Shown piece by piece: positions 8,446-39,707 of a DNA stretch of 64,000 nucleotides; the first letter of the stretch is position 1; each line of letters opens with the position of its first letter. Source of the DNA: Trissonchulus latispiculum (lineage: Eukaryota; Nematoda; Enoplea; Enoplida; Ironidae); assembly GCA_030248195.1 (NCBI GenBank), contig JASAND010010952.1, positions 17,103 through 81,102 on the forward strand, given 5' to 3'. The position numbers and the translations under genes were made by a program. The notes below the pieces were generated by a model, which worked only from the letters and a program-made list of their open reading frames with translations, did no database searches and was not told the origin of the DNA.

Positions 8446-8784
8446 CATCTATCCATAGTGTTTCTGATTCGACATTAATGCGTTGGAACTGAACTGCTGG
8501 TAACTCTTTGTTGACACAATCTTAATGAGTTGATCTTCAGGCCAAACTAATCTCCAATCATTCTTTACTTTCCAGAAATCTTTCTCCCCATCCCTTTCAC
8601 CTGGAGGTATTTTCTTTCCGGCCGTTCGCTGAATTAGGTTGCAACCATCTTAATGAGAGTAGGATTGTGTCAAAGTGTTTGGTGAGATGTTTTCTGTGAT
8701 CGTCAGAAAATCGGTCACTATTGACGCGCAGACTACCACCTGCAACATCTTGACAAGGAAGCATATTTGCAGCAATTTAATATT

Positions 8785-8848
8785 GGGTGGCTCAATCGGT
8801 AGCGTGTTGGCCTAGACAGCCAAAGGTTGTGGGTTCGATCGCCACCTC
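8785..8848 (+). repeat. tRNA-derived SINE head with tail to about 8925
   Basis: GGGTGGCTCAATCGGTAGCG is a good polymerase III A box and GGTTCGATC a good B box. The ends GGGTGGC and GCCACCT pair as an acceptor stem, and TTGGC and GCCAA pair as an anticodon stem around CTAGACA. A unique tail follows with TTTTTCGGGTCGGAGGTGCT and TTCGTTCTTTCATT. The same tail occurs at 16585-16680 and a related one at 25025-25110, so this is a SINE family rather than a functional tRNA gene. Confidence 0.7.
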
Positions 8849-9019
8849 CGGTCCGAATTTTTCGGGTCGGAGGTGCTGTAGTGACAATCTTAGTTTCGTT
8901 CGTTCTTTCATTAATATTCGCTTTTTCTTGAGTTGTCGTAGAAAGGAACACTACGCTAACTAGGCTTGGTGCACTGTTCTTGTTCCTTGACTTTCGCCTT
9001 TCCATCTCCAGTTTATGTG

Positions 9020-18100: not shown

Positions 18101-18310
18101 TTTTAGACATCGTTAATTGTTAATGAGAGCACAAAATGACGTTGTCGATACAGCTGTAGCGCTTTTACCAGGGCTGGTGGACCAAGAAGAAACCAAGGAT
18201 AAATCCGAACGGGAGGCGTCAGGCACCCGTGTACCCACAAAACCAGGACCTAGAAGAAAGAAGGGAAGAGGGAGGTTCAGCTTTTCACTCACCATTGAAA
18301 GTAAAGAATT

Positions 18311-18381
18311 GGCCCAGCCGGGTTTCGAACCACGGCCCTTTCGATCCGGAAACAGACATGCTACCGCTACACCACAGGGCC
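18311..18381 (-). tRNA. tRNA-Arg(CCG)-like sequence, probable pseudogene or SINE head
   Basis: On the minus strand, GGCCCTG and CTGGGCC form a nearly complete acceptor stem (one T-T mismatch). TGGTGTAGCGG is a good A box and GGTTCGAAACC a good B box. The anticodon loop TTCCGGA gives CCG, but two of the five anticodon stem pairs are mismatched. A normal T-arm and a 71-nt length are present. I favour a degenerate copy or a SINE head over a working tRNA, because of the stem mismatches. Confidence 0.5.
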
Positions 18382-18389
18382 ATCCCGTT

Positions 18390-21044: not shown

Positions 21045-21290
21045 GTGCACGGTCTCAATTTAGTTTCCATATTACAACGCCGATTTCAGCTTTGCCTTTC
21101 TGTTCTTCTTCTTAGTTTTTTCTCAACCGGTGCATACGTTGTTGCAAAAATGGCTATTCGCTACAGCAGCAATGAAAGATATGTAGAAACTAGATTTGCC
21201 GACGATCAAAAGTTTCCTGCAGTCACTATATGTGATTACAATCCATTCTTTAAAATGACCTTATTTTGGACCGATATTGCTAAGCTGTGG
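21045..21290 (+). CDS. Channel exon 1 seen: HG motif, first helix, FPAVTIC
   Basis: Acceptor TACATTTTAG, donor GTGAGA, phase 0 to 0, 82 codons. It starts VHGLNL, carries the hydrophobic LSVLLLSFFSTGAYVV helix and then FPAVTICDYNPFFKM, the post-helix signature of the family. Because it starts with an acceptor, at least one coding exon lies upstream. Confidence 0.92.
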
Positions 21291-24200
21291 GTGAGAAAAG
21301 TTTTAGTACTGAAAATAAATATGATTAGTGAGCATTGCGCTGGAAACTACGAGTTAGCATGTATCAACCAAGGGTTTTAAACAGCCCATATTCTTGCAAG
21401 CAAAGTGACGAAATATAGAAAAGTTGTAATAATTGACTCACACAGTTTCGACATCTTATCCTAGCAACTTCAAACCCGCTAAATTGGACACACACATATA
21501 GTTGGACCGCATGATCCCTAGGACGAAGCTTTAATCAAGGTATAAGGTTGTTTTGGCGCTGCATCGGTTTCAAACCAAAACACGTAAGATTAGTGACTTT
21601 ACTTCAGCATAGCACCGCAATGCAAATTTTTTAAAGTTTTGATTACGTTATTTACTTTATCTCATTTAAGCCCCAGCTTACAGTTTTTTTAATTTACTTC
21701 TAGTTGAACTGAGATAAGTAAAAGCAACCTATCTTGTTTCAGTACTTCTTATACACTGGCGAAGGTTCAGCCCTGGAGCAACGCAGAAAGAAACCGTTTG
21801 AGTTTGAGTTTGAGCGCTCAAATTTCAAGACTTCTGCCAGAACAGGTTATGGCTATTATTTCGTTTCCTAATATACAGGCAGTAGCAATTGCAAGTTTCA
21901 TCCTCTGAGTGGTTTCGTGGAAGTTTGAAAGGTGCCTTCTTAACAGCATTCCTGCACCTGGTCCTTGACATTGTATCAGCTCAAATTAACCGCCAGCATA
22001 CTTTGTTCAGAATGCTTGAGAGAATTGACTCAAAAGTGATTGGCAAATGTATCGAAAGCCTGCCCCAAAGGAGTTTCAAGCTATCTTGAAATATTTGACA
22101 AATGAGAAAGGAGAAAAATAAATACTATAATTTATTAAGGGATTGATAAAGACTTGAAATACAACATAGAATTTCAGAAATCATAACTTTTCTCCGTAGG
22201 GTTTAGGTGGCATAATATGCATATTAGTTAACCATGCTGCCTCCCTCACTTGCGCATAAATAACCTGAAATGGGTAATAACTATGTGCAAATCCGAACGT
22301 AAATTAAAGTTCTGCATGATGAAATCGCGTATCACCCTTTTCTGTTGTCGGTTGCTATTTTAGGCAAATGTCCGTCTGGCTGGATAGTGGGCGATAGAGC
22401 ATGCTACCTTAAACTGTCATCAAAGGAAAAAGCATTAGCTCAAGGACAAAGTGGCAGCACCAAAGGAAAGCTGACAGTCGACACATCGAACAGTCTTTGC
22501 CAGTCGCTTCCTCAGAACTCACACCTTCCTGTTTTCATAGATGCAAAACAGCTGTCTAATTTTCATGACATTGTGTACGTACTCTTTAATGTGGTGCTCT
22601 GTCGGATGGTCTAATTTCGGATAGTCTAACGTCGGATAGTCTAAAGAAATTTTCGGATAGTCTAACAAGGTCAAACTAAATTGCACTCTGAAATTTTCTG
22701 CTAATTGATTTTCGGTGATCAAATTTGGCCTTCAAGAAAAGCATGAACTTGTAAATGCTGACATGAAGCTGTCCCATGTGACTATTAAAACGGCTGTTCC
22801 AGGCTTCTACAAAATTATTCGTGCGGATTTTCACGTTGTAACAATCCCACAAAAATAACACAGTACGGTGCAGCCAAAACGGAATAAAATAATCAAATAA
22901 AAAAATCCTGGCTGACGTCTAAAACACTTACATTTCTAAATCTAAGGTAAATTTTCTTTGCTTATCTTTTAGACTATCCGAAATTTTCTTTAAACTGTCC
23001 GAAGTTAGACTATCCGAAATTAGACTATCCGAAAATACCCCCTTTAATGTCACTTTTACTGAAGCATTCATTATGAATATAGTACAATTCAGCGTTAAAA
23101 TCTGCCTTTAATGTATTATGGTTCTGCCAAACTTTGAGCAGCTACCAAAAGAACGTAACTTCTGAAATCTTGACCACATTACAGAATGGTCAATTGGTTA
23201 ATTGTACAATTGCAGACGGCAGGTTCTCAGCTTTCAGCTCCAGCTCTGGTTCTGTTCTCTGAAACACGGCTTTCCCTCACAAATGTGATAATGCCGGTCG
23301 AATAAATTGTACGCTTATATTGAGTTCTAAGGACTCATTTATTGGTGGGGGTAATTTCCTGTTTTTATAACCGAAAAGTTTGATAGTTTAAATAGAAGTA
23401 TAAGGTCTCCGAACACTTAATGTTATTGCCTTTCCCAAACAGCCACACAATAATCACAGTACCGCTGCATCCTATTTGCTTTGCTAGTATCTCACTCTTG
23501 ACGTTAAAAATTAATTCATTGCATCAACGTTCAGGTTTTGCCTAAGCAGGTCTGCTTTTTATTTCAGTTATACTCCTGCTAAGTTATACTTCAGTTATAT
23601 AGTTATAGTTATATTTCAGTTTTACTAAGCCTCCTGCTTTTTTCCAAGCTCACCTCCTATGATTAACACACATTACAACCTAACCCGCACTGCTGATTTG
23701 TACACGTTTTTCGTATTCTCAAATCAATTTCTAAATATAATTCAGGAGGCTCGGCTGAGGAGTTTAAGACAAATTAATGTTTAGGGATTATCTGAGAGTT
23801 GCTGATAAATATATGTACCTTGGTTATGTAAAGAATGAAAATGAGTCAGTCATAAACATGTTGGGAAAGTCTTCAGACTGCCTTGCACGGTATGTTATGT
23901 CAAGAACAAGCATGTATATACTGTTAATAATGTATCATAAAAACTGTAAATACTTACTGGAAGTGGTGGCGTTACACAAACCGAGAGGTTCCGCTACACA
24001 AACTTTAGTGCCGTTACACAAACCTTGAGTCTGGTTACACAAACCTGTTCTCCTACTACACAAACCACTTTTCCCGTTACACAAACCTCATACCTCTAAA
24101 TACTAGGATGCAACAGTTATTGTTAACAATGATAAGTATTATTTTCTTACTTTCAAAACATTTAACTGTAAGCAAACTGATACAAACTTAATTAGAAATA

Positions 24201-27200
24201 TTTAAAACTAATTAAGAAATTTGGGCCTCAATTAAAATTATAATTCCAGATTGACACACTTTAAATTCGAGCAATACTTTGATTTATTCAATAATATATA
24301 ATGTATTGCCCAGATTCAATAAAGTTTGTCGGGAGTTTTTTGGCGCCCGAGCAAATATGATAGGTTTGTGTAGCGGGACGGTTTGTGTAACGGGAAAACA
24401 CCACTTACTGCTATTAATTTGTAATTGATCACACGGTATGCACTTAGCCTTGCTTAGAATTTTTCAATATTATTTTCTATTTCTGGTTAGCACTTTGTGA
24501 CTGACCTTAAGATGGCTCCATGTACTGTGTTCAACGTTTGAAATCAAAAATCATAAAAACAGAACGATTGGACAATTACATCGAAAACTTCAGGACTTTG
24601 TCATTCCTTTTGTTGTTACTGTGCTCTCGAATGTAATAACTAAGGCAATCGCGTAATATTATTTTTGTGTCTGTTGATTAGCTTGAGTAGGTTTTTTGTT
24701 GGTTTCAGTTATGTCTTCCTCAACCAAATGCACAGTTTGAAGGAAATAGTTAACGTCACGCGACCGATAGTATTCAGTACAACGGCACACCAACACACTG
24801 TAGCTGCGTCTATGGCTGGTTTATTGCCATTAGAACGCTCCGAAATCATTTGCCAGCTGCTGGAAAATGAAACTGAGGCCTGCACACAATATGGTAAACA
24901 CTGAATTCCTGCCCCTTAAAGATTGTATTTTGGGTAATGACTTTCGCAAAAACAATCCAATATATCTGATGCTATCAGAACACGCTACTTTGATGTGTTC
25001 TACTTTCCTAGTATTCTGCCTAGTGCGCTTAAATTCGTGGGTTCGCGTCCGTCCCATCGGAGGTTCGAATTTTTCGGACCTTCGGTGGTACATGACTTTC
25101 TTATTTTTTCTCATTTATGTTTGCAGAGAATGAAACTCAGTGGATTGGCGGAAAATTGGGAATAGATGACTTAATTTCGAAAGGACTTAGTACAGGCGAT
25201 ATTAACCCTATGCTCACATCAGTTAGCTATACCCAATGGGAGTCAATACTTAGAGGGACGAAAGTATGTACAACCAGATAGAAAACTCCTGCTAAATGAA
25301 ATTATTGATTCATTAATTGAATAATAAATTAATAATATTAATTAATTAATTAATTAATATTGTGTTCTTGTAAGGGCGGTTTCCGAGTCTGCCAAAAACA
25401 ACTTGACTGCCAATCGTATCAGGCGTTAGGATTTTATCCACTGTAAAATCAGCTTTATAGCTGGAAAGAATAATCAAAGCAGTAGAATTTCCAATTTTTC
25501 TGCATCCGTATAGAGGATTCTGTAACTTAGAAAAAACTGAATAACCTTCGCATTTCTTAACCGAAAAGGCTAAACTTTGGTGTGTAGGGTTTTCAGATAT
25601 GGGCAATATTGTCCTGAAACGTTCGTGGATTCAGTCTTTCTGCACACTAAAATGCGGTCCCATGGAAAATATTAAAAATGACTTTTTTAGAAAGAGAAAA
25701 GTCTCAGCATGCCGTTCGGGTTCGGGAAATATATACTTTATGAAAGCTGTCTTGAAGCGCTCTTGAGATATAAAGAAAACTTAAAGATTTCGCTATCCAG
25801 ATCATTTGGTCAGACTTTATTATGTGGTTGCAACAGTATATGAAAGGAAGAGTAAGAGCTTAGGCATTCATAATAGAAACGGGCTTCGAGATTAACGTTT
25901 TGGCCGAAAACTCACTTACCATTGTTCATCATGTGTTTAACGAGGCTGATATAAAATGCATCTGATTGGCTAATCGTATGCCTTATGCTAAATTTATGTG
26001 TACAACGATTCGCTTATTTCAGCTTAAAGAAAAGAAAAAAGACTGATAGAAATTAAAGAAAGAAAGAATAAATAAAGAAGAGAAAGAAAATGGAGGAAAA
26101 TACAAAAAAGGCTTTGTTCACGAACACTGTCAAACTTTGTATTCAATTAAGCAGCTGTCATTTAGGTTGCATCAAACTTTGACTTATAGCAGACACCATG
26201 TCTCGTTTTCTCTTTGCGGATACCCTCATTTTGACAAGTTAGCAGTAATCTGAGGTGCACACTTGACCTTTCTGTGTAACTTAGTTGTCTGTTTGTCACA
26301 TATTGCAGACAACCAATAAACTGAAGAAAGAAAGAAAACAAAAAAAAATAAATAGAAAAGAAAGAAGGGAAATTTATACGGAAATCTGCGAATAGCTGTA
26401 TAAGGCCCCCCTTTCGAGATCGCGAAGGGAGTCATGTTTAGAGCTGTTAAGCGTGTGTTTATAATGTGAGCAAACTGAAGTGCATTCCATAGGCTGCTTA
26501 ACTACCGTAAGCCTCATCAGTGCATTGCAGTTCGACTTCATATGTATAAACACACGCTTACCAACACTAACCGGGTCCCCTCCCCTCTGAAATCTAGGGG
26601 GATGTCACCTTGTGCGCATCAATTTAACATAAGGTTGGGAATTAGCCAATCAGATGCGTTCTATTTCAAACGCATATATAAACACATGCTCAACAATGGT
26701 AAGTGGGACCCTTCGAGATTTCGGCCTTAATCTGCCGAGCATCTCAACAGCCATTTTAATTAGGGAGGGCTAAGCTCCCACTCTTCCTACTCTTGGTAGT
26801 TGCGAACATAATGTGAAAATTGGTAGATTTTGGCCTACAATCTCACACCTCTACGCAAACTGGTTGGTTTGGCAGTCACAGGGTAGTCAAAATACTTAAA
26901 CTTTTGATAGAACGCCGCCTGAGAATACTAAGTTGCTTCAAAAATTTAAAACTTCAAAAACAGCTAAATTTCATAGCTTTAAAATTATCAAAACTTTTAT
27001 CATCTGAATAAATATAAATTAAAAGTCATGCTCATTGAAAATCTATGGACCTATCATGACCCAGCCATGATAACTGGATACGAAAAAATCAAAACTCCAC
27101 AGGACAATGCCTTGAAATGGAACAAAGTTTCAGAATATTTTACTCTTGGTAGAATTTAAATATTAGCGCATGTAGGATGTTGGATAGAAACTGGTCAAAT

Positions 27201-30200
27201 CAGAGTTTCTGGAAGTAAACTTTTTGTCAGAAACTGTTGTGCAAAAAATTGTTAACAGCGATCTCAGAATTATCTAGTGGGATCAAAATTTCATGTTCCT
27301 ATTTTACAAGCACTTGGACTCTATGGTAACTTTCGTTTATAAAGTCATGCTCTATGGGGATGGGTCTTTGAATAGTAAGTAGTTGAACTATTGAAAAACT
27401 TACTGATGTCAGATGCCCAAACAGTAGTTGTGGTCCATTGCTTAGTCAGTCCATTTAGTGAATGAGAGAATTTTGTCTGCTTTGGTTAGAACAACAACTT
27501 AGATGACAAAACTGTGGCAGTTTTGAACAGTCAGGTCCAGCATACGACAAGACAACACAAGCACCAGTCTCGCGCTTGTGGGTTCCTTGTTAGCAGCGTG
27601 CAAAGCATGACACAGCGGCTGAAAACAAAGATCTTCCCCTCTGTCACCGTGTATCCCACTTATACCTATCCTACTTACGCCTAACGTTTGATGTATCCGT
27701 CTTGAGATAACAAAACTCAAAATCCTACTCACACCTAAAGTTCAAAACTGAAACTCCTGCTTACGCCTAAAATTTTCCTTGCAAAACTCATATTCTACTA
27801 CCTAAAGCTCTACAGTTGCCTGCTTGTATGTCTTTACCGTTCAGATTTCATGCAATGTTACAATGTAAGTAATGCGTGGAATTCAAAATCTATTTTAAAA
27901 TCTTTATTCAAAATTCAATGTAACGTTTAGACAAATATTCTTTCGTCAGCTGTACATATATTTAACTTTAAACTAAGGCCAAAGGGAACCAAAAATCGAT
28001 CTTGCTGAAAAGTTGTACATAGGGTTTTGTGTCTAATTTGAAGTTAGTTTTGCTGTTCAGCGTTTATTTAGTTTACAAATTTCAGTCGCAAGTTTGCTAT
28101 CTGGATCATATAAGGTGAATCATCCTAAGAAAAATTGAAACAACTTCAGGAACAAATTCAGAAAGTGGATATTGTAATTTTAGCTTAAATAGGAATCTGA
28201 GTTTTGCGTAAACATTCTTTAGGCGTAAGTAGGAATGTGAGTTGTGACAAAAAGAATTAGGCGTAAGTAGGAATTGTAGTTTTGTAAACGATTAGGCGTA
28301 TGTATGATAGGCATAGTCTAAGGTTAACGCGGAGGGTCTGGGGGGGGGGTCCAAACCTTCCAACCCGGACAAGCTACAAACCCTATCGCTATCGGGGACA
28401 AGGGGTAACCAAAAATAGCCGGCAGAATTATAGTACGACCAAAAGTGTGTGTACAAACTTCGACCGTTTATAGCAGAGTAACTTTTGGAGCAAACCCCAA
28501 CAATGTATATATTTTTAGAATCCTCAGGAACTCGAGATTTCGAAAATCCGGAAAATTCCGGAATTCCGCGTTTCATTCACGGAAAATCTAAAATTGTTTT
28601 TCACGAAAATGCACCCAGTTTCCGGAATTTCGGGTTTTCAAAATTTCCGGATTTTAAAAATTTTCTCCAATACCCACAAGATGGGTATCATTCGAAAGCT
28701 CTTATCGCGCTGAACAACTTTTGTAATAGAATGAACTCTTGAAAATGCACACATTTCCCTAAATTCGAGAAAACAGGATTTTCCGTGATTTTCCGGATTT
28801 TAAAATTTTTCTCCAATACCCCACAATATGGGTATCATTCGAAAGCTCTTGATGAGCTGAACTAATCTTGTAATAGAACCAATGTCTGAAAATGCACCAA
28901 AGTCCCGAAATTCACGAATTCCGGATTTCTCTCTAGCTTAGAAGGTTTTAGCGAATTCCGAGAACTGGGCTCATTTCTGCGAGTTGCTTCTATTACAAGA
29001 TTTGTTCAGCTCATCAAGAGCTTTCGAATGATACCCATTATGGGGTATTGAAAAAAATTTTAAAATCCGGAAAATCACGAAAAATCCGGTTTACTCGAAT
29101 TCCGGGAAATGGGTGCATTTTCAAGAGTTCATTCTATTACAAAAGTTGTTCAGCGCGATAAGAGCTTTCGAGTGATACCCATCTTGTGGGTATTGGAGAA
29201 AATTTTTAAAATCCGGAAATTTCGAAAACTCGAAATTCCGGAAACTGGGTGCATTTTCGTGAAAAACTTGTAAGAGCACAAATATGCAGCGGGGCCAGCT
29301 CTATTCGATCGTGAAAACAAAATTTTAATTGCGATAAAAACTTGGCGAAAAACAAGAAATTTTAGATTTTCCGTGAATGAAACCCGGAATTCCGGAATTT
29401 TCCGGATTTTCGAAATCTCGAGTTCCTGAGGATTCTAAAAATATATACAGTGTTGGGGTTTACTCCAAAAGTTAATCTGCTATAAACGGCCGAAGTTTGT
29501 ACACACATTTTTTGGTCGTACTATAGTTTATACAGTAAAATTACAAAAACTTTCCGGCTTCGCCGGAATTTTTTAGCTATAATGTTTAATTTTTTGGGAA
29601 AAATCGGGCAAAATTTCAAAATTTTTTCCAAAAATTGAAGATTTTTGCAAAATGTGATAAAAAACTAGTAAATTTTAATAAACTTAGCGTTAAATTTTTG
29701 AACAATTTTGCAAATTTATTCTTGAGGTGCAAGCCCCCTGAAAATTTTGTTCAAGGTACAAGCCCCCTCAAAATTTTTTGGGGACAAGCCCACCCCCAGA
29801 ACCTGACCCTATGTTAATGTATGGGCCTAGTAGAAGTAAGCTCTGACACACCTTGTCTGCCCATGTTGCTATATAAATCATCATTTTAAGGCAATGTTCC
29901 CATATGCGTATGGGATAATGAACGAGTTCATTAAGAAAGAATACGAGAAGCCGGACCAAGCAGTATATCAGAACTCGAGATTTCAAGACATTGTGAAGTC
30001 GTGTACAATCAATTATGTCACTAATTGCATGGACTGGTAAGACTACCAATTCTTCAAACTTTCAGCCGTTTTACTTCAGTTTGTATATAGCGCGGGCATT
30101 TTCAGTATTTAATAAAAATCCGAGAGCTTTCGCGGTGCAAAAACCAGGGTTTGTAAAAAACCGCCTTACTACATAATGCTTTGCCAGTAGCATATTTGTT

Positions 30201-33200
30201 ACTAATGATACTTTGTTGATAATGCACTTGTTACTAACTTATCGTCATATGGCTAGTCAAAAGGTTTTCATGAAAGCTTTCTTAATGCTATTATTCTGCA
30301 AATTGTAAAATAAAGCCAAATGACATTATTTGCCGTGCCGGCCGAGCGGTTAAGGCGTTCGACTTTGGATCCGATAGGGAACCGAACCCGAACTTTGGTT
30401 CGAATCCCCGCTGCCATAAGGCTTTCACAAATCCCCTTGAGCAAGGGACTAAGCACATATCGGTTCGCCGTGGGCTCTAGCCAGCCGAGCTATCCATCCT
30501 TAGTTGGTCGGTAAATGGGTACCACTTATGTGGGAAGGTAACAGGAGACCGTGTAGGGCGTCTACACTAGCGTCTAGCTGGCCCCTCCTCCACGGTTGTA
30601 GTCATCATATGAGGTGACACTCCTGGCTCAAGGGCTGTGTATCCGGGGATGAGCACCGGCACCCTAGACCCTGACAAGGGTAGGAGAATCCTCCGGGGGT
30701 TACCTTTTTTCTTACATTATTAAGCAAGTTCGGTTAACAGTAGCAAAGCTTTAGTTTTCAGGACTTGCAAATTGAACAGGCGACAAACACCGAACTGAGT
30801 TATACTTATGATAGCGCGGTAAACAGTGTAAAGTACTCACATTAAACCCAGTTGCAATAGGTCAGCATAGTAATTATAATGAACAAAACTGCAAAAATTA
30901 AACCTTCTAGCATAATGACTCTCGGACTAGACTTTGAATTTACTGCTGTATTTTTATTTGTACACAGAAACTGCGATAAATGGCAGCTGGATGTTTGAAT
31001 TTGAATTTTTGTACTCACTCCGCCCATGGAAAAGTGCTTTGCTCAGATTTTTCTTAGAACAACCACCAAGGAGTACTTTTTGGATTTAAACCAGTCTGTT
31101 TTGAAAACAGCGATAGTTAAGGCAGGCTTAAGGGGGGGAGTCCATTTTTGGCCGATTTTTCGACCATCTCCGATTTTGCTCATTTTCACATATTTTGTTC
31201 TCCGATTGGTATATTTAAACGAGTTTTTGAAATTAAAGTCGGATCTTTTACGGTTAATGAGTAATTTCACTTCAAAGTTGAGATCTCATGTGTTAAACAT
31301 AGGTGTAATGTGGGTAATAACGTCCCCGTTATCACCCCCCTTCCAAGCCCTTTTATAATTCCCACTTTCACTGTTTTCCCAAAACTCCCCCAAAATCCCC
31401 CAAAATCCCCCAAATCCCCCATAAATATTGTATTTTTATAATTGTTGGGAAGTCCGATAATTATGTATTATTTTGTATATAAAATCCCCTCTAAAATACT
31501 GTGCAGTGCTAACTTTATGTTCACCTTTTGAAAATTACTTAAAATTACTTATTTCGGAGCGTAAACTTAACATTGCACATATTTCCTTTTCTTGTTGGCT
31601 TAGCGAAGATAGACCCTCCCGTTCCCAACGCATGACAAAATTCTCCTTGAATGATTACATCACCCTTTCGTCAGTCGGGAGTTTGACAAGTCACCGTGCG
31701 GCTGTTTATCTGAGATTGGGGCCCCACCCTCACCTGTCTACACCTAAAAGTGTAAGTTTCTAGGTTTCGATTTTTCTTTTAAAAACCCCTTTCTAACTCC
31801 TTTTCTAACTGTTTCCTGACTCTAATCCCCTTTCCTTTTTGCTTATTTTTCAAGTTAATCAATCCCTAACTTCCCCCCTTCCTTTTCCCACCTAATTAGC
31901 GGGGTTGCCCCCGTTCCCTCCCCCGGGTCTAACTTCACTAGCTAAGTCCCCTCCCCAATTTTATTTTATTGTTCCGCTGCCCTATTTGTTGCTGGTCCCC
32001 CATTCCTTTGTCTCTGTTCCCTTTTGTGCCCCTTTTCCTGTTTTTGTGCGGGTAGCCCGCTGTACCTTGTCCGTCTTGTCCGGATACCGCCGGACGGACT
32101 TTATTGTATTATTCCTGCCCTGTGCCTTCCCAATAAACCTATCAGTTGTCTGCTATCTATTTTAATTAATTAATTTACTAAGTTCTAACTAGTTTGGTTT
32201 ATTTTTCTAGCTAGGTAGAGCTCTGGGACTAGCCCGGAGCTGACTTATAACTGAGTTTATTTTTGTGTGTGTGTTCCCCCGTTTGCTAGGCGCCCCGTTG
32301 GCGTCCCCCAAAAGTGTCCATCTTCCCCTTGGCGAGGCAAGTCGGTGGTAGAGAGCCGCCTGGACTAAATATCTCCACCCGCAGTCGTAGGTCAGCGTCT
32401 TGCGCACAGTTCCATTGTAAAGTTGGGGCTTGAGCTCAGCGGTTAAAATCCCTAGCTCCCTCAATATTTTACATAGGAAACTGGAAAAGTTTCAATTTTT
32501 TGACTAGTGTCAAAAAATCTCGAAACTGGGCAAAGATTATCAGCATAATTTGGTATCATTAGAAACGCCTAATTGTATAGTTTAATTTGCTGGAATTAGA
32601 TTTTTGAGTTAGGCCTTTAAATTTTTTAAAATAATTTTTGAAGCTTGCTGACTGTGAAATTTGACGTTTTTCGTTGCTGAAAACTGGGGAGTTTCAACTT
32701 TGATCAAGCATTACATAAATTGAAAGGCCTAACTAAAAAATCTGATTCCAACAAATCACAGTATATAAGTAGACGTTTCTAACAATACCAAATGATGCTG
32801 ATAATCTTTGCCCAGTTTCGAGATTTTTTGTCACTAAAAATTTGGTTTTTTACCTTTTACGTGAGACCATTGCAATCAGCAGCTACCAACTGCCAAAATA
32901 TCTCGTTTCTCGTTATTTCTGGTGGCTGTAGCTCAGTGTTGACTACAATTATTCCAGCTAAGTAGCGCAACGTGGTCGCTGCATCCCAATCTGTCGGACT
33001 GGTACCCATATAGCAAAAATATCGATTTTTTCAAATTTCTCAAAATATGATAAATTTGACATCAATCGAAAGCTCTTAATGCGGGGAACATTTTTTCTTC
33101 TTGTCTTGGGCTATGGTCCGCAAATGCACCAAATTGAAGTTAATTGCTGTTAAAGGGTTTTGTTATCTAACCTCAACATTGGCCTTGCTGCTCCTTAAAA

Positions 33201-36200
33201 ATCGTTAAAAAGGCATGAAATCACGTTTAGCCTGCCAATACCGGGACAAAATTAGTTCTTTAGATCAATTTTCAAATGTACACCCCATGGAAGCTCCAAA
33301 ATCAAAGACTGTACAAGGAAAATTGCCTTAGCCTCAAGCGGTACCCTCGTTTCGCCCATTAGTACAATTGCAAGCAGTTGATAGCTGGTAACTCGTGGAG
33401 ACATGGATGAAACAACTCAATATTTAAACTTGGTACGTACAACATGTGTGGCTACATTATGTGTAAAAATGAGCGAAATCCGTGACTATAAATTTTTTCA
33501 TGGTGGACCCCCCCTTAAGTTTGTAACAAAAAAGAATCCAGCATCAACTTTGTCCTGTTGTAACACATTTTGTCGAGCGTACAGCTCGCATATTGCAAGT
33601 AGGATACTCAGCTGCTCGAAACCAGAAAACATTTTTATGTACTCATCCAAACTTTAAGCAACACATGGTACATACTGGTCAAGAACTTTAAATTGTTGCA
33701 AAGTTTCGAAGCACCCGTTGATTGCTAAAGCAGTTGTTCCGTTTTTGTTAACTTGACACAAATAAATCCCTAAATTTTTTAAACCGACCGGGATCGCGAT
33801 AGGAGATTATCAATATAAGGTGTGCTTTATTAAATTTAATACTCATTTCATCCATACCTGAAGGAGAGGTCAAATTTCACCTGCCCTTGTGGTAGCCCAT
33901 TTGGGAACCTCTTGTAGAAGCAACTTAGCTTAGGTGCAGTATTGTAAAATAAATTTATCCGACTTCATTTTTTTGAAAGTCTTTAACAAACCACGGCTAT
34001 TTTTCAACAAAAGTTAAGTTTTTTGGACAGTTTTCAGGAAAAAAGCGGTTTGTTTCGATAATCTTCGTGCTTCCGATTTTGTGTTCAGGAACAGATTTGA
34101 GTTCTATGATCCTTATCAAGGCAGCTGCTATACCTTAACAAGTCATCTCTTTGTGCAGTCAGGACAGGCAGCTGGTAGGTATACATTTTCAATTGCTGTA
34201 AGAATATATTACGTGGTACCCGGATTAATAACAGAAACCAGGAATTATAAAGACAATTATCATACGACGATACTTTCGTAGGCCATTTCAAAGCAGTATT
34301 GCATGTTTTATTCCAGGAATGCAAATCTTGATAAACGCAAGCGCTCCCAGCGTTTTTGACATAAATGAAAATGCAGGCGTTAAACTTATCATACACGACA
34401 AGAACTCTCGACCTATTCCAATGGTTGACGGTTACATTATTTCTCCTGGAACAAAGTCATCGTTGCAGGTAGCATATGTGAGTTAATATATAGCTCTAAC
34501 CATTCTGTTCAATTATAGATTACTACTGTAAAAACTGAAAAATACTACAAGGATTCGCAGAAAGAGCTACGATTAAGCTCTTGCACAACGAAGACCTGAC
34601 TGCTGTCGGTTTTATCAAAAAGCGTTGCTGTCCGCAAGTAACGACTAATTTTAAGTATTTGTAACTTTTCCGTATTCCCAGTTAGAACTGTAAATATATC
34701 ATAAACCCGTCTGCAAACATATTGAAATTTTCCGAAAAATACGTGACTTAGTAGAAATTTAACCATGCTTCCAGCCATAATGTGCTTCACGCATAGTATA
34801 CAGTAACACACCATGCATGAAACGTGGTATCATATTGCATCAAAATACTTGTCCAACTGGATCAAATTTTTACGTAGCTTCTCTGTGGGCTCACAGAAGC
34901 ATAAACAAAAGTAATTTGCATTAGCTCTTGGAAAATGGATTACAAGAAGGTAAAGATTGTGTAAACACGGCTAAACGAAAGCAGAATTGAGTGCCAGAAA
35001 TAATATTTTTTGTCTAATTTTCTTTGTCAACTTTGTCTATTTTTATTAGCTCACTTTCAGAAAACTAGCAAATATAAACCCTTAGTGTTACCGTGCAGTT
35101 ACAATGAAAGCATCATAATAATTTTAGAGACTGGAGCAAAGACTGCCGTTGGTTGCAAGCGATTGCTCAAATACGATATCTAGCTACGGTGGTTGGCTTT
35201 CCGCCTTCACACCAGAGGTAGCAGAAAGGAATTAGTAACTCTTGTTAGCGGTTACTGCAGCTGTTATTTGGAAAATGAGCAAGTGCTATTGTACTAATAG
35301 GAAGACAGTTTTAACAGATTACCTGGGGATTGCCTCCGCTTTGTGTTGTCACCTTTTACTTGCCATGTTTATATAGGTCTAGCTAATTGCGATACAGCCT
35401 ACAGTACAAATTACCCCAACCATATAGGCTATGAGTGTCTAATAATTGCGCAAGTGTAGAACTATTGTGTTAAGAGCATTTAATAGATTTCCAGATCTGC
35501 TACCTTTCGTGTTATGAACGGAGTGTTATTAGCAAATGCGGCTGCTTCGATGGACGAATAACCAACCAATTTGCGGCTACTCATCATCGGAACATATCAA
35601 ATTGTCTAATGAATATGAGCAATTGTACGTTATCATGCTTCGTAGTAATTGGTAGTAATTTCTGTTTATGCCATCGCGACATATGCAAATTTTCAGTATT
35701 AAATTTTTCATAACTGCTAGGATTGCCTGTGGAAACCTTTAAACTCTCTGAAGCATTTGAGCACTGGTACTAGTAACGTCAGTTATTATGTCTATTTGAA
35801 GCTGAAAAATAACGAATAACTGTCAAGCGAAATCCCATCCTAAAATGGTAATGCTTCAACGGATGACAGTTATCATGTAGCATAGCCGTCATCAATCCTA
35901 CAGTAACAAGTGTTGTTTTTTGAGATTATATGGGGTACTTTTTGTGCCAAATCTCATGTCATGCAATTTCTGAAATATAAAATCCTTCATAACTTAGATG
36001 TCATGTAGAAACATATGAACGCTGTTTTTGATCAAGCACACACTCAAATTATGATAATAAGAATTTTTTGCTAAAAATGCTCAAACTACCTACCTCAGCT
36101 CTGCCTCCCCAATCGACTTACCGATTACACAGTATGCCACAAAAAATTCAAAAGGAAGATTTGAAATATGAAAAAATAATAAATAAGAAAAAGAGTGAAA

Positions 36201-39200
36201 ACTAACTTCACAAAACATGTATGACATTCAGTAACTTTCCACGAATGGAGCTGTAACATAATTGTCAATACAGTACAGTTGCAAACAACCCAGTACAGAG
36301 ATATGATTGAGTTATGTATCTGGAAATAAAAGATTGCAAATTCCAGAGTGTCTGAACTAAACATCTCCGATTAGTCTGACCAACTGTGAAGACAGAAGGC
36401 AACAACTTACAAGTGACGCAAATTTATTTTGCAAAGAGAAATTGCCTGAAATAATCAAATACGACTTACAACGCAGACACCAGACAAATTTGATAGAAAA
36501 TTTAGTCAAGAAAATAACACAATGAATCAAGTAACCTAAAGTAAACAAGAGATCGCACAGAAATGACCGGAGAAAGACACAAAATTTATGAACCTCAACA
36601 CCGTCAACTAATAGGAAACCCATTTCATAACAGATCGCTTGCGCGCTCAACATTGTTAGGTTAAACTATTTCCTAACTCCCACCCTGGACCGTACACAAG
36701 AACACAAATTAGTTTGAACGTTTGTGAAGATAACACCAACTTGTGAAAGATTTAAAAAGAAAAAGCTAGGAATATTTCCAGAAAGATTTTCAAGATATTA
36801 AGCAAACTTTCTCCCATAGACATAGCGCTTTAATGGTAATTATGAAAAGCATGATGAAGCATGAATAAATTTTACAGAAAAATGAAATATCTTGACTTTT
36901 GTCAGGCCGGTTAATTAAATTAGAAAAAAGGGTGATCATAATACAATGAAAAAATAAAGGAACATTTCTTGCTGACTAAGGACTCAGATAGGAAATCACT
37001 ACCGCAGCAAATATAGACTGAAGCGAAACTAGAACAAAATGGTAGCCGGTCAATAATTTAAACGAAATTGTAAAAATTCCAAATTTTTCATGAAAGTCTG
37101 CAAACATGAAAAATTACTTCAAAATTGAACAAATGCAATGTTCAAAACAAGTTTACTTTTAAAACAAACGTTAAATGCTATCTTTGGCATGACTATTAAT
37201 TTACCTTTAATTCATGCTTCCAAGAAGCAAGCTCCATTGAAAATACATGTCTACACTAAATGAACTCTTAAACAGTTCTTTGATGCAAATTCTTCAGAAA
37301 CGAGGAATGTTGTAAACAGTGCAGTGTGATGTTTCTGATATTTTCGATATAATGTGCGTAAGCCAACAGTTTTTGTTGCCAATTAATATTGTGCTTTAGC
37401 CTGTGTTTGCTGCAACTTTCTCTAAGCATTTTCAGGGGAGTGCTTATGGACACTTGGAGCATTTGAAAATTCATCTGCTGAATGGTTTCAAAACTGTCAA
37501 TGCTTGTGGCCATGCAGGTTGGTCACTATTAGATCTATTTTATTCATCCTGAAAAACTTCCTTGACTCTAAGTGTTAGCATTTATATCACTTCCAACATT
37601 GACTGTTGGATCAACCAGCTAGCAATGCTTCTGCTACAAAGCGTTTGTGGTCAAATTCTATTACTTCAAATATGCGAAACCGAGTTTTATTTTATAAATC
37701 GATTCTTAATTCAATTTTAATATTTTAATTTTATATCCCTGCCAACTTCGACTGTTCGATTAACAAGCTTAGCAATACTTAACATTTGAGAAAGTACAGA
37801 GCGTTTGTGGTCAAATCATATCACTTGACATTTGAAAAATCTAATTTTGTTGTGTTCCGTAGTAAAGAACAAGTTCACCACGAATACGACCACAAAATCG
37901 TAATTTTATAATAAAAGTTCTTAAAAGTATTGAAATACCTTTTGAGTTAAGATCACAAGCACAACGATCAATTTCTTTGATAACTAATTGAAAAGTTTGT
38001 CGTGAACCTTTGAAGCAGTACGCTTTGTTTTCAAAAGCGCTATTGTTTCGTATTGCGAAAGCAAGTACTCTTCGAGTTCGAGGTAAGAATTTATTTAAAT
38101 GTTTAAATGATACCAATCACCCTAAGGCACCAGCCGACGCCAATATTCCATATTCTGCTAATTACGTTATTTCATTAACGATACGCTTTTACAGATTTGG
38201 CTTTTACGAAGTAACAAGAACAACAACAACTTCCGACTTTACAGATGAAGTAAGTAGTAATTTAGTAATTTGAAGTAATTGAAGTAGTTTAGTAGATCCA
38301 TATGCTGCATACAGCCGGATGGAAGTTTTAATGCTTTCCTTGTTTTAACATTTGGCATTGTATTTGCTGCATGCATTATTTTTCAATTTCAGCAGCAGAA
38401 GAATCAAATAGGAAACACCATGTACGTTAGTAGACATTTTGACACCTAGTTAACATATCTGATAATCGTAGATATAAAAGGAGAATCCCGAATTCTCTTC
38501 AACGAGCTTATAAATGTTTCATACATTTTCTAATGCGCTCTTTGACTACAAATACTGACAAAATGGTACCTCCTAGCTGCATTCTCGAAACGAAATAGAT
38601 AATATGAAATCGCTTTTAGATCTCGAAAAGCTTGGCCCAAATTAGCGGAAAGCATGCCAGTCTATGCCATGCCCTAACTTGAATCTGGAGCACTGAAGTC
38701 AATTAAAACAAAAGCGAACATGCCTTAACGCAGTCAGCAGAATCCTATCCGCAACAAAATTTGACTCTCGTAATAGTTTCTTTCTAATCTAGACAGCGTA
38801 TTTCTAGCCATGCCAGCTCAATTTCTTTGAAAGTCAAAGCCTAGTCAGTTCAAGTCTTTAGAAGTTTGGTTGATTTGTGTAGTCACTATCTTTTAATAGG
38901 TGCACAAATTTAAAGTGAAATAATAAATTGAGATCAAACGTTCCAGCACTGTAGCACTAATGACCGGCTATAGATCCAAATTTTGCCAAGCTCGACTGCT
39001 ATTGGACCGATGTTTAAATATGTTTCGGGTTCATAAAGTAATCTTTCAACTTTGCACCTATACTTCCCCTTGGAAAATACTAAGTTCGCTTTGTAAACTC
39101 AATTATTTTAGACTGGCCAAGGTTACTGTATCAACCCCCGAAAGTTATCACTTAGTTTTCAAAGAAAGAAGAATTTACGAGGTGAGAAAACAAAAAATAA

Positions 39201-39707
39201 GTTTACGCAGGTTGCCACTAACGTTTTAACTCATGTTGATAAGTTAACTCTGTAGGTAGATCTTTATGAGCAATGGAATAACAGTGGTCTTCAAAGCCAA
39301 TTCGTACCTTGTGGATACTGAGGAACCATTCAATTGAGTAAAAATTATGGGACTTCAAATATCCAAAACGGTATGTTACTAGCGGGCGCGTAAACCGCAA
39401 GAACTTATGCGTTAGAATTATGAAGTCTCCTTGCGACGGACCAAACCAGTTGCACAATTATAGGTTAGCGATAGCATAGCAACCCTTTTTACGGATAAGG
39501 CAAAAAATGATTCGGCATCATTGAACAATTCCTGTGATTCCTGCTTTAGTTTGACATTCCTGTTTTTAGATATACCAACTGATATCCAACTCTGGAGGAA
39601 TGATTGCTATATTTACAGGAGCTTCCTTCATTACTATAGCAGAGCTGACTGCTTTTATATTTATGGAATCAGTTAAGCTTAAGCCGCGTTTCTGGTATGA
39701 CGCTTAG
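21045..39707 (+). CDS. DEG/ENaC-family sodium channel subunit with a C-type-lectin-like insert
   Basis: Fifteen exons (21045-21290, 21743-21845, 22364-22574, 24709-24893, 25127-25263, 29891-30036, 34089-34174, 34317-34468, 35128-35217, 35495-35624, 37436-37517, 38195-38249, 38393-38421, 39112-39181, 39570-39707) join in frame to 619 codons plus TAG; every junction is GT-AG with matching phase. Residues 2-3 are His-Gly (the N-terminal gating motif), 14-38 the first helix, 57-67 FPAVTICDYNP, a family hallmark. A CPSGW...CY lectin-like segment occupies about 117-257. About 325-525 holds the cysteine-rich palm/thumb region (DPYQGSCYTL, CYERSVISKCGCF, CQCLWPC). Residues 579-605 are the second helix with GAS at 591-593 and a conserved Glu at 599. 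The initiator exon is missing. The family forms trimeric cation channels in the plasma membrane; the ligand or stimulus is unknown. Confidence 0.9.
21743..21845 (+). CDS. Channel exon 2: start of the extracellular loop
   Basis: Acceptor CTTGTTTCAG, donor GTTATG, phase 0 to 1. Reads YFLYTGEGSALEQRRKK and a charged FEFEFERSNFK stretch. No specific motif; included on splice sites, phase and position. Confidence 0.75.
22364..22574 (+). CDS. Channel exon 3: C-type-lectin-like domain start
   Basis: Acceptor GCTATTTTAG, donor GTACGT, phase 1 to 2. Opens with CPSGWIVGDRACY, the typical opening strand and first disulfide region of C-type lectin-like domains (Cys-Pro-x-Gly-Trp ... Cys-Tyr), and later has SLCQSLPQNSHLPVF, resembling the second-helix cysteine region and the LPVI stretch of that fold. 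Nearby GT sites at 22573 and 22579 are possible alternative donors but would break the phase with exon 4. Confidence 0.8.
22602..23041 (-). mobile_element. Mutator-like (MULE) remnant with iterated TIRs
   Basis: Both ends consist of repeats of CGGATAGTCTAA (three to four per end) in opposite orientation. Inside, on the minus strand, a frame at about 22676-22861 contains NNFVEAWNSRFN and SIYKFMLFLKAKF. This is the N-x-x-E-x-W-(N/H)-x-x-F-N ... (H)-x-S-I-(W/Y)-K-F pattern from the C-terminal part of MULE-type transposases. The remaining transposase is missing, so this is a deletion derivative. It sits 27 nt downstream of the exon 3 donor of the channel gene. Confidence 0.7.
23966..24412. mobile_element. 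TIR element with iterated GTTACACAAACC ends
   Basis: The left end has five to six copies of (G/C)(T/C)TACACAAACC between 23970 and 24090, separated by 8-14 different bases. The right end has GGTTTGTGTAGCGGG and GGTTTGTGTAACGGG in opposite orientation at 24362-24405. About 450 bp, in intron 3. No coding frame. Confidence 0.7.
24709..24893 (+). CDS. Channel exon 4: continuation of the lectin-like insert
   Basis: Acceptor TTGGTTTCAG, donor GTAAAC, phase 2 to 1. Reads YVFLNQMHSLKEIVNVTRP, with an NVT sequon, and later LLPLERSEIICQLLENE, which looks like the C-type lectin stretch in front of the WIGG strand. With exon 3 it forms a symmetric phase 1-1 unit of 396 nt. Confidence 0.75.
25025..25110 (+). 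repeat. SINE-related fragment in intron 4
   Basis: GTGGGTTCGCGTCC resembles a polymerase III B box and is followed by TCGGAGGTTCGAATTTTTCG and CTTCGGTGG, as in the SINE tails at 8850 and 16620. It ends 17-20 bases before the exon 5 acceptor, so it may supply part of the polypyrimidine tract. Confidence 0.5.
25127..25263 (+). CDS. Channel exon 5: WIGG strand
   Basis: Acceptor TATGTTTGCAG, donor GTATGT, phase 1 to 0. Begins with NETQWIGGKLG; WIGG or WIGL is the most conserved core of C-type lectin-like domains. The calcium-binding EPN/QPD and WND motifs are not visible, so carbohydrate binding of the classic kind is unlikely. Confidence 0.8.
25890..26735. mobile_element. Inverted-repeat element in intron 5
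   Basis: CACTTACCATTGTT at about 25913 is inverted at about 26690, and GCATCTGATTGGCTAAT at 25960 is inverted at 26645 (ATTAGCCAATCAGATGC). Inside is a second palindrome, AAGCGTGTGTTTATA at 26449 against TATAAACACACGCTTA at 26545. A purine-rich AAAGAAAGAAA tract occupies 26030-26110 and 26320-26370. No coding frame. Confidence 0.6.
27650..28305. mobile_element. TIR element with iterated CTACTTACGCCTAA ends
   Basis: The left end has repeats of CCTACTTACGCCTAA and variants (CCTACTCACACCTAA, CCTGCTTACGCCTAA) at 27660-27805. The right end has TTAGGCGTAAGTAGGAATG repeated at 28218-28300 in opposite orientation. About 650 bp, intron 5, directly adjoining the next element. Confidence 0.7.
28308..29822 (+). 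mobile_element. Dispersed repeat copy 3, split by a palindrome
   Basis: The left part (28308-28430) has the start blocks ACAAACCCTATCGC and AACCAAAAATAGCCGG; the right part (29526-29822) has the end blocks TGCAAGCCCCCTG, TACAAGCCCCCTC and CTGACCCTATGTTAATGTAT seen in copies at 8090 and 9020. The ends are weakly inverted (GGTTAACGCGGAGGGTC against GACCCTATGTTAATG). The large palindrome 28431-29525 lies between the halves. Confidence 0.65.
28431..29525. repeat. 1.1-kb palindrome rich in CCGGAAATTCC blocks
   Basis: TAGTACGACC at 28431 is inverted at 29515, AATCCTCAGGAACTCGAG at 28520 at 29418, and CATTCGAAAGCTCTTATCGCG at 28690 at 29155; the symmetry centre is near 28960. Each arm is about 540 bp and holds two diverged copies of a block with TTTTAAAA, CCACAAGATGGGTATCATT and a GAAAGCTCTT stretch. 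No coding frame despite long chance frames. Confidence 0.85.
29891..30036 (+). CDS. Channel exon 6: return to channel core
   Basis: Acceptor TCATTTTAAG, donor GTAAGA, phase 0 to 2. FQDIVKSCTINYVTNCMDW corresponds to the DF(I/V)..C.F.G..C region of DEG/ENaC proteins. Intron 5 before it is 4.6 kb and full of transposons; an additional phase 0-0 exon there cannot be excluded. Confidence 0.8.
30332..30715 (+). repeat. tRNA-Ser/Leu-like SINE in intron 6
   Basis: GCCGGCCGAGCGGTTAAGGCG is a class II tRNA A box region and TTTGGTTCGAATCCCCGC a B box region, with a long variable arm between (30345-30412). A tail follows with CCTTGAGCAAGGGACTAAGC, resembling the CCTTGGGCAAGGCACTTAA-type block found in many animal SINEs, and later GACCCTGACAAGGGTAGGAG. 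The anticodon loop is degenerate (CTTTGGA), so this is a SINE, not a tRNA gene. Confidence 0.7.
31380..32465. other. Pyrimidine- and GC-rich block in intron 6
   Basis: Starts with four CCCCCAAAAT-type units (31385-31425) and continues as a C/T-rich strand (31800-32160), then a GC-rich part with GCGCCCCGTTGGCGTCCCCC. Composition differs sharply from the rest of the intron. The long frames inside are compositional. It could be the untranslated end of a retrotransposon; I found no protein similarity. Confidence 0.4.
32505..32835. mobile_element. Foldback MITE in intron 6
   Basis: GTCAAAAAATCTCGAAACTG at 32508 is inverted at 32815-32832, and CAAAGATTATCAGCAT at 32530 is inverted at 32793. Arms of about 125 bp with small differences surround a short centre at about 32640-32690. 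No coding frame. Confidence 0.8.
34089..34174 (+). CDS. Channel exon 7: YDPYQGSCYTL
   Basis: Acceptor TTGTGTTCAG, donor GTAGGT, phase 2 to 1. FEFYDPYQGSCYTLT matches the F-x-D-P-x-Y-G-x-C-(Y/F)-T-F hallmark of the family. Ends with SGQAAG. Confidence 0.92.
34317..34468 (+). CDS. Channel exon 8: AG..V.IH and PG region
   Basis: Acceptor TTTTATTCCAG, donor GTAGCA, phase 1 to 0. Reads GMQILINASAPSVF, then ENAGVKLIIHDKNSRPIP and YIISPGTKSS, in the order found in DEG/ENaC proteins (L.L.LN, AG..V.IH, PG). This is the upper palm. Confidence 0.92.
34519..34599 (+). pseudogene. Exon-like sequence with in-frame stop in intron 8
   Basis: An acceptor TTCAATTATAG is followed, in the phase that exon 8 leaves, by ITTVKTEKYYKDSQKELRLS and a cysteine, then TGA. 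That composition resembles the strand after PG in family members. No GT donor occurs before the stop. It could be an alternative last exon making a truncated protein, or a dead duplicate of exon 9. It is left out of the main model. Confidence 0.35.
35128..35217 (+). CDS. Channel exon 9: RLEQRLPLVASDC
   Basis: Acceptor AATTTTAG, donor GTAGCA, phase 0 to 0, 30 codons. RLEQRLPLVASDCS matches the family pattern R...LP.PYG.C that follows the PG turn. The phase fits both neighbours. Confidence 0.8.
35495..35624 (+). CDS. Channel exon 10: CYERSVISKCGCF
   Basis: Acceptor TAGATTTCCAG, donor GTACGT, phase 0 to 1. ICYLSCYERSVISKCGCFDG matches the thumb signature C...C....(V/I)...C.C of DEG/ENaC channels. 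It ends NMSN. Confidence 0.92.
37436..37517 (+). CDS. Channel exon 11: CQCLWPC
   Basis: Acceptor AGCATTTTCAG, donor GTTGGT, phase 1 to 2. ECLWTLGAFENSSAEWF then NCQCLWPC, the C.C.P.C motif at the base of the thumb. Confidence 0.9.
38019..38082 (+). other. Exon-like sequence, possible mutually exclusive partner of exon 12
   Basis: Acceptor TTTGAAGCAG and donor GTAAGA bound 64 nt that are open in the phase left by exon 11 and end in phase 0, exactly as exon 12 does. The peptide (TLCFQKRYCFVLRKQVLF) does not look like the family, unlike exon 12. Kept as a candidate only. Confidence 0.3.
38195..38249 (+). CDS. Channel exon 12: FGFYEVTRTTTTSDF
   Basis: Acceptor GCTTTTACAG, donor GTAAGT, phase 2 to 0, 55 nt. 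FGFYEVTRTTTTSDF fits the C....Y....S.S.FP stretch after the C.C.P.C motif. Confidence 0.85.
38393..38421 (+). CDS. Channel exon 13: 29-nt microexon
   Basis: Acceptor TTTTTCAATTTCAG, donor GTACGT, phase 0 to 2, reading QQKNQIGNT. It is needed to connect exon 12 (phase 0) to exon 14 (phase 2) and falls where the family has the R.N segment before the second helix. Confidence 0.65.
39112..39181 (+). CDS. Channel exon 14: pre-helix strand
   Basis: Acceptor CAATTATTTTAG, donor GTGAGA, phase 2 to 0. LAKVTVSTPESYHLVFKERR corresponds to the NL..L.VY...L..E strand before the second helix. Confidence 0.85.
39570..39707 (+). CDS. Channel exon 15: second helix, GAS tract and stop
   Basis: Acceptor TCCTGTTTTTAG. 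SNSGGMIAIFTGASFITIAE is the second helix; G-A-S at residues 591-593 is the selectivity tract (family G-x-S) and the Glu after it is conserved. A 14-residue cytoplasmic tail ends in TAG, short for the family. No clear poly(A) signal was seen within about 500 bases downstream. Confidence 0.93.
   Translation: MYQLISNSGGMIAIFTGASFITIAELTAFIFMESVKLKPRFWYDA

Follow-up and report, generated by a model that had tools for sequence, protein, structure and literature searches.

A predicted DEG/ENaC-type channel gene of the nematode Trissonchulus latispiculum with an extracellular insert that starts like half a C-type lectin-like domain

Introduction

Does a gene of the enoplid nematode Trissonchulus latispiculum specify a channel subunit of the DEG/ENaC kind with part of a C-type lectin built into its extracellular loop, and what could such a part do there? 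The question is raised by a stretch of 64,000 nt (the window) that covers positions 17103-81102 of GenBank contig JASAND010010952.1 (C7453 in our numbering; assembly GCA_030248195.1), for which an initial annotation had proposed a gene of this description at window positions 21045-39707. DEG/ENaC channels are gated by inputs as different as protons, peptides, force and proteases, several of which act at the finger domain. We have rebuilt the gene, searched the 734-Mb assembly (21732 contigs) for its relatives and compared the inserted part with known folds. We consider it probable that the locus is a gene for a DEG/ENaC-type subunit, with at least 16 predicted exons and an insert of 178 amino acids (aa) that starts as half of a C-type lectin-like domain (CTLD) and would likely serve as the dock for a protein that controls gating.

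A channel subunit of the DEG/ENaC kind

The gene model consists of 16 exons between 21045 and 39707, all on the plus strand. Rebuilt exon by exon, it adds up to 1881 nt, i.e., 626 aa and a stop codon, in one maintained reading frame, and each of its 15 introns has a GT donor and an AG acceptor. The initial annotation had described a frame-keeping join of 15 exons with 14 junctions and 1860 nt; the frame is indeed kept, while the counts had to be revised. The shortfall of 21 nt is exactly what exon 12 (38062-38082) would supply, and that exon was presumably left out of the earlier model. Exon 12 probably belongs to the gene, and it is not proven because the frame holds with or without it.

The spliced protein matches the Pfam family PF00858 over residues 2-609 (E = 4.9e-40; 138.4 bits at a cut-off of 23.6). 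When the whole protein was compared with the PDB sequences, the best match was ENaC alpha (8.5e-13), structures of both ENaC and ASIC were matched, and all 29 sequences listed at E <= 1 are, judged by name, sodium channels of the DEG/ENaC kind. Two membrane helices are suggested by the hydropathy profile, with maxima near residues 16-34 and 593-611. The hallmark motifs of the family (such as HG, FPAVT and the GxS filter) follow one another as HG at residue 2, FPAVTIC at 57, DPYQGSCYT at 350, AGVKLIIH at 391, CGC at 467, CQCLWPC at 516 and GAS at 598. Both the order of these hallmarks, as described in the initial annotation, and the PF00858 match, which it had suggested looking for, are thus borne out on the spliced model, and the gap of about 270 residues that it saw between FPAVTIC and the DIVKSC region measures 263 in the present model (residue 63 to 327). 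From residue 63 on, the ectodomain includes 14 cysteines outside the insert, the number needed for the seven ectodomain disulfides which, according to the consulted portion of a structural paper (PMC6197857), are conserved in the family. Searches beyond the genome with the spliced model yielded no homologue at E <= 0.001 among 5636 candidates, a weak negative, since few animals are represented in the collections; among viral contigs, there was none either.

The insert and the channel gene

Exons 3 to 5 (22364-22574, 24709-24893 and 25127-25263) specify residues 117-294, the 178-aa insert. In an alignment with ASIC2, the distance between the FPAVT and AG..IH anchors is 314 residues here and 136 in ASIC2, and the excess of 178 is the exact length of exons 3-5. 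In three paralogue contigs (C17440, C5844 and C19532), counterparts of exons 1, 3, 4, 5, 6, 7 and 8 share a strand and keep the order seen in the window; identities are about 28-68% per exon. The intron phases at the end of exon 1, at both ends of exon 3, at the start of exon 4, at the end of exon 5 and at both ends of exon 6 agree in all three; the phase at the end of exon 4 agrees in C17440 and C5844, C19532 being without a donor there. Candidates for exon 2, searched for on the condition that they have the phases seen in the window, are clear in C17440 and C19532 (Y.L.TGK) and weak in C5844.

The association extends beyond these paralogues. An exon-3 relative lies 0.5-11 kb downstream of 23 of 24 first-helix exons, in each case on the same strand; the underlying table is a sample, as 70 of 489 candidates were scored, and in one pair (C8902) of the 23 the exon-3 match has E = 0.014. 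The sole first-helix exon in the sample without such a relative is on contig C18981. Among 31 exon-3 loci screened, the palm motif was found upstream in 12, with C6868, C7677, C8705 and C21359 new to the list of first-helix exons; it was not found within the up to ~1.5 kb examined upstream of the other 19, for six of which a first-helix exon is present farther off on the same contig.

Exons 3-5 are, as predicted from this conserved arrangement, part of the channel gene. We regard it as highly improbable that an ordinary DEG/ENaC gene houses them in one of its introns, as a gene of their own or as an alternative cassette: introns of up to 4.6 kb, splicing that is predicted from sequence, and the fact that omission of exons 2-5 together (636 nt) leaves the frame intact would allow for it, but the order of exons is the same in four genes, with phases mostly the same, and the linkage of first-helix exon and exon 3 holds for 23 of 24. 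Moreover, the phase-1 end of exon 2 does not fit the phase-0 start of exon 6: unless exon 2 is skipped as well, exons 3-5 are needed for the frame. They sum to 533 nt, and their omission alone therefore shifts it.

The insert is the mark of a family. A genome search with it returned 140 matches at E <= 10. The stricter limit of E <= 0.001 leaves 76, and exon-3 matches, including the window's own, make up 72 of them; the number of genes is smaller than the number of matches, because allelic or recently duplicated contigs are among them. The ratio of nonsynonymous to synonymous substitution rates (dN/dS) points to constraint: it was 0-0.50 in all nine paralogue pairs listed for single insert exons with dS < 0.4 (five for exon 3, two each for exons 4 and 5; pairs with two or fewer differences excluded), and 0.13-0.86 in distant pairs (dS ~0.65-1.2), where it is less reliable. 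The genome has at least 95 matches to PF00858, many within one open frame. The longest open frames of 30 of these loci were screened, and none includes the motif CP..W...CY; the palm-motif pattern also matched none of these 30 divergent loci, which makes that part of the screen uninformative. Going by these open frames, the insert-bearing channels would be one branch of a large repertoire.

The gene model has its weak points. Immediately 5' of exon 1, which starts at 21045, there is an in-frame TAG, and therefore the exon with the start codon must sit further upstream; it is missing from the model, as neither the listing of open reading frames upstream in the window, which gave no convincing exon, nor a comparison with paralogue C5844, over the 3.2 kb that precede its exon 1, revealed it. 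The splicing of the whole gene is predicted from the DNA sequence. Paralogue C19532 may be decayed, because the donor at the end of exon 4 is absent and exon 1 needs two frames, the change of frame being inside the first-helix exon; the two regions concerned are 80-330 and 5560-5680 of locus L063.

Exon 3 and the N-terminal half of C-type lectins

CPSGW...CY, LPVF and WIGG, the motifs on which the initial annotation had based a C-type-lectin-like segment, are all present in exons 3-5. The relation could be substantiated for exon 3, which has a CPxxW...CY hairpin (here CPSGW), an extra helix, helix 1 with its cysteine (LC) and helix 2. In a profile-profile comparison with the CTLD, exon 3 scored 51.8, and 200 column shuffles reached at most 21.3. 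Profile matches in the PDB were of C-type lectin type in 12 of 12 cases in one search and 19 of 20 in another. All 50 fold matches listed for the predicted exon 3 structure are C-type lectin folds, and the prediction overlays their N-terminal half with the elements in the same order. As judged from profiles and predicted fold, exon 3 thus specifies the N-terminal half of a CTLD. In a subgroup of exon-3 copies (loci L095, L096 and L097, on contigs C13823, C9319 and C8484), the loop from CY to the cysteine of helix 1 is shorter and comes nearer to the spacing of ordinary C-type lectins.

These same comparisons make it quite improbable that the insert arose as a new domain of its own, with a convergent CPxGW...CY likeness to C-type lectins, since shuffled columns, matched structures and the order of elements in the fold all argue for relationship; on the side of convergence stand the silence of Pfam, the lack of a lectin match for exon 4 and for the greater part of exon 5, and the PDB profile E-values, which are above 0.1.

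Several further results weigh against a lectin relation of the insert as a whole. PF00059 matches none of the seven full inserts compared, and a PDB search with the insert as a single sequence gave nothing at E <= 10. In Foldseek, the top two matches have E = 0.48 and 1.2, and C-type lectins account for only four of the 42 listed. Exon 4 shows no detectable relation to C-type lectins and contributes nothing to the match, 59 of 100 shuffles of it scoring as well, and its predicted fold is unusable, with a mean predicted local distance difference test score (pLDDT) of 41.5. With exon 4 kept in place, the gain from WIGG in exon 5 is lost (74 of 100 shuffles of exons 4-5 are as good). Exon shuffling from lectin genes via a common intron position was considered and dropped: the position gives it no support, because in both of two split lectin exons of this genome the open frame, unlike that of exon 3, continues past the WIGL core. 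The slot assignment discussed below derives from sequence alignment, not from a whole-subunit structure.

The lectin-like segment of the initial annotation is hence upheld for the N-terminal half and not for a whole domain, as the insert lacks the C-terminal third and the core cysteines of that part. Of the checks it had named, the PF00059 profile does not call the domain on the spliced protein or in any of the seven inserts, and the fold of residues 117-294 came out lectin-like for the exon 3 half and was not obtained for exon 4.

Exons 4 and 5, cysteines and sugar-binding motifs

Exon 4 (24709-24893) is a module of 61 residues with two conserved cysteines (IICQ...C) and without a recognised fold, which is kept in the paralogues. 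We tried it as the C-terminal part of a lectin, with SEIICQ likened to the final ICE motif, and rejected this, there being neither profile support nor a usable fold prediction. Exon 5 (25127-25263; ending in phase 0) includes WIGG and YTQW, and its colinear match to the WIGL core is weak. All seven inserts have in exon 5 either W.GG or a sequence close to it (WIGD, WLAG), at the place where WIGL would succeed helix 2. The lectin match of exon 5 alone was equalled by two of 200 shuffles, and leaving out exon 4 raised the lectin score from 52.2 to 66.6, which one of 100 shuffles equalled. We propose that the insert is a lectin-like domain that is split by the 61-residue module and ends before the C-terminal third; the split is weakly supported, because the WIGG match vanishes with exon 4 in place. 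For the C-terminal half (W..C...ICE, with two core disulfides), there was no alignment beyond the N-terminal half and WIGG.

Each of the seven inserts has five cysteines, of which the lectin hairpin and exon 4 account for two apiece (residues 235 and 245 in exon 4). With these four presumably paired, C162 would be left without an obvious partner.

EPN, QPD and WND are the calcium- and sugar-binding motifs of C-type lectins. Neither an EPN/QPD-type motif nor WND occurs in any of the seven inserts, in agreement with the initial annotation, which saw no such motifs; the control is weak, since an EPN/QPD-type motif is present in only three of 13 CTLDs in this genome, and a strict WND in none. Sugar binding is not expected, because the calcium- and sugar-binding half is absent and EPN/QPD is missing; binding of a sugar by the insert appears unlikely on these sequence grounds.

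Position in the finger and a possible role in gating

By its sequence anchors, the insert comes after finger helix 1 (exons 1-2) and before helices 2 and 3 (exon 6). We infer that it occupies the slot between finger helices 1 and 2 that in ENaC belongs to the protease-sensitive GRIP domain. According to Noreng et al. (PMC6197857), it is from this place between the two helices that GRIP covers helix 2 and touches the thumb; they describe the GRIP stretches as unique to ENaC.

As the occupant of this slot in ENaC lies over finger helix 2 and adjoins the thumb, pulling, binding or removing it can alter gating there. An extracellular protein, of the matrix or of a cell surface, might bind the module formed by the half-lectin and exon 4, and the bound module might shift the finger against the thumb, upon which the pore would open or close. 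The unpaired cysteine of the insert could form a disulfide with a neighbouring subunit or with a partner. From such a position, an outside molecule would probably be able to open or close the channel via the insert. The gating or positioning role suggested in the initial annotation stays an inference, which gains weight because the insert sits between finger helices 1 and 2.

The insert could instead be a structural or assembly module, acting in subunit contacts or trafficking at the outer collar of the trimer, without a ligand and with the half-lectin as mere scaffold. Such a role agrees with the missing sugar-binding half and the lack of EPN/QPD in all seven inserts, and the invariant columns, among which cysteines and aromatic residues predominate, together with a DRACY stretch, fit a fold and not a variable binding site; the knuckle and finger domains of ENaC make subunit contacts, according to the part of PMC6197857 consulted. 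It accords less well with an insert that is kept as a separate 178-aa block in a many-copy family, while CP..W...CY is absent from the longest open frames of the 30 PF00858 loci screened, so that channels of this genome can do without the insert, and we judge it unlikely, if worth serious consideration. We prefer the dock for a gating protein.

Exon structure and other elements

Exon 1 (21045-21290; phase 0 at both ends and not the first coding exon) encodes HG, the first membrane helix, the FPAVTIC palm strand and the start of finger helix 1; the corresponding exons in C17440 and C5844 are 58-59% identical. The end of finger helix 1 and the linker to the insert are in exon 2 (21743-21845), and the channel part resumes with exon 6 (29891-30036), which by alignment covers finger helices 2/3 and includes DIVKSC. 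DPYQGSCYT and the beta-ball/palm region are in exon 7 (34089-34174), the palm with AGVKLIIH in exon 8 (34317-34468) and a palm/thumb section in exon 9 (35128-35217). The thumb continues in exon 10 (35495-35624), with its cysteine-rich stretch CYLSCYERSVISKCGC, and in exon 11 (37436-37517), with CQCLWPC. Exon 12 reads KYSSSSR; it is followed by exons 13 (38195-38249) and 14 (38393-38421), by exon 15 (39112-39181), with the palm strand running to helix 2, and by exon 16 (39570-39707), with the second membrane helix, the GAS selectivity-filter motif and the stop codon.

Copies of exons 11 and 16 are present on another contig (C10154:24822-26980) at 78% and 79% identity, respectively; exons 1, 3 and 8 are absent from the match tables for this locus, which would be either a partial duplicate of the window gene or an incompletely assembled allele. 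An unspliced-looking match to residues 370-507 (C20346:767-1183) spans four exons, has six stops and is possibly a processed pseudogene of a DEG/ENaC relative.

Repetitive sequences occur within the introns. Intron 5 includes large palindromic elements (28441-29512) that resemble miniature inverted-repeat transposable elements, with arms of 218 nt and 155 nt that are 95-96% complementary. Further inverted repeats lie at 32505-32836 (120-nt arms, 88% complementary) and 22602-23032 (64-nt arms, 92%). In intron 3 (23970-24400), units of ttacacaaacc are repeated, with inverted copies near 24360, as seen by eye. A section of intron 6 (30335-30710) has by eye the look of a tRNA-derived short interspersed nuclear element (SINE) and was not called by ARAGORN. 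Elsewhere in the window, a tRNA-Ser(aga) at 8782-8854 and a tRNA-Arg(ccg) at 18309-18382 were called, the latter also at the Rfam tRNA cut-off; both may be SINE heads. None of 10 neighbouring open frames of the window matched Pfam above the cut-off. Outside the window, a COX1-like stretch on contig C17523 reads best with the invertebrate mitochondrial code (ATA as Met, AGA/AGG as Ser and AAA as Lys); its frames are broken, and it is likely a nuclear copy. If it comes from the host, this code argues against a sponge, a cnidarian, an echinoderm or a flatworm.

Comparison with known systems

We found no report of a DEG/ENaC protein with a C-type lectin-like part in a literature search that omits most subscription journals, and the word "lectin" is absent from the main text, in the portions consulted, of two phylogenetic studies of DEG/ENaC channels (PMC9822975 and PMC10507113). 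If our reading is true, a second, unrelated module sits in the slot of the ENaC protease switch, which would make the slot a reusable input port, and the family would offer a direct route to test how movement of the finger reaches the pore. A more far-reaching picture, which we find conceivable without counting it as probable, is that of a lineage with dozens of receptor-channel genes, each with a split half-lectin dock in the gating slot, through which an outside protein gates the entry of sodium.

A close parallel in architecture is ENaC (human SCNN1A/B/G), which shares the DEG/ENaC framework and likewise has an added module in its extracellular part, in what by alignment would be the same place. 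Unlike the GRIP domain, the insert starts as a lectin-like half, and no ENaC chain is among its matches at E <= 10. A conserved basic site in exon 2 was considered and discarded: RRKK of the window's exon 2 is absent from the best exon-2 candidates of the three paralogues. ASIC1/2 have the same core, palm, thumb and second helix, whereas ASIC2 has 178 residues fewer between the FPAVT and AG..IH anchors.

Long-form CTLDs (CD69, NKG2A, CD23 and the snaclecs; PF00059) have in common with the insert the CPxxW...CY hairpin, helix 1 with its cysteine and helix 2. They differ in that the insert includes exon 4, without a lectin match, and is devoid of the C-terminal third and the sugar-binding loop; the 13 CTLDs of this genome that we compared have 6-8 cysteines, as opposed to five in all seven inserts. 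Polycystin-1 and PKD1-like proteins are channel-forming proteins whose ectodomain includes a C-type lectin domain. They are of another channel superfamily, and the domain is part of a long ectodomain at the N terminus instead of a finger. In polycystin-1 (PC-1), according to the consulted portion of PMC7728438, this domain is needed for PC-1/PC-2 activation, a precedent for a lectin domain that acts on a channel.

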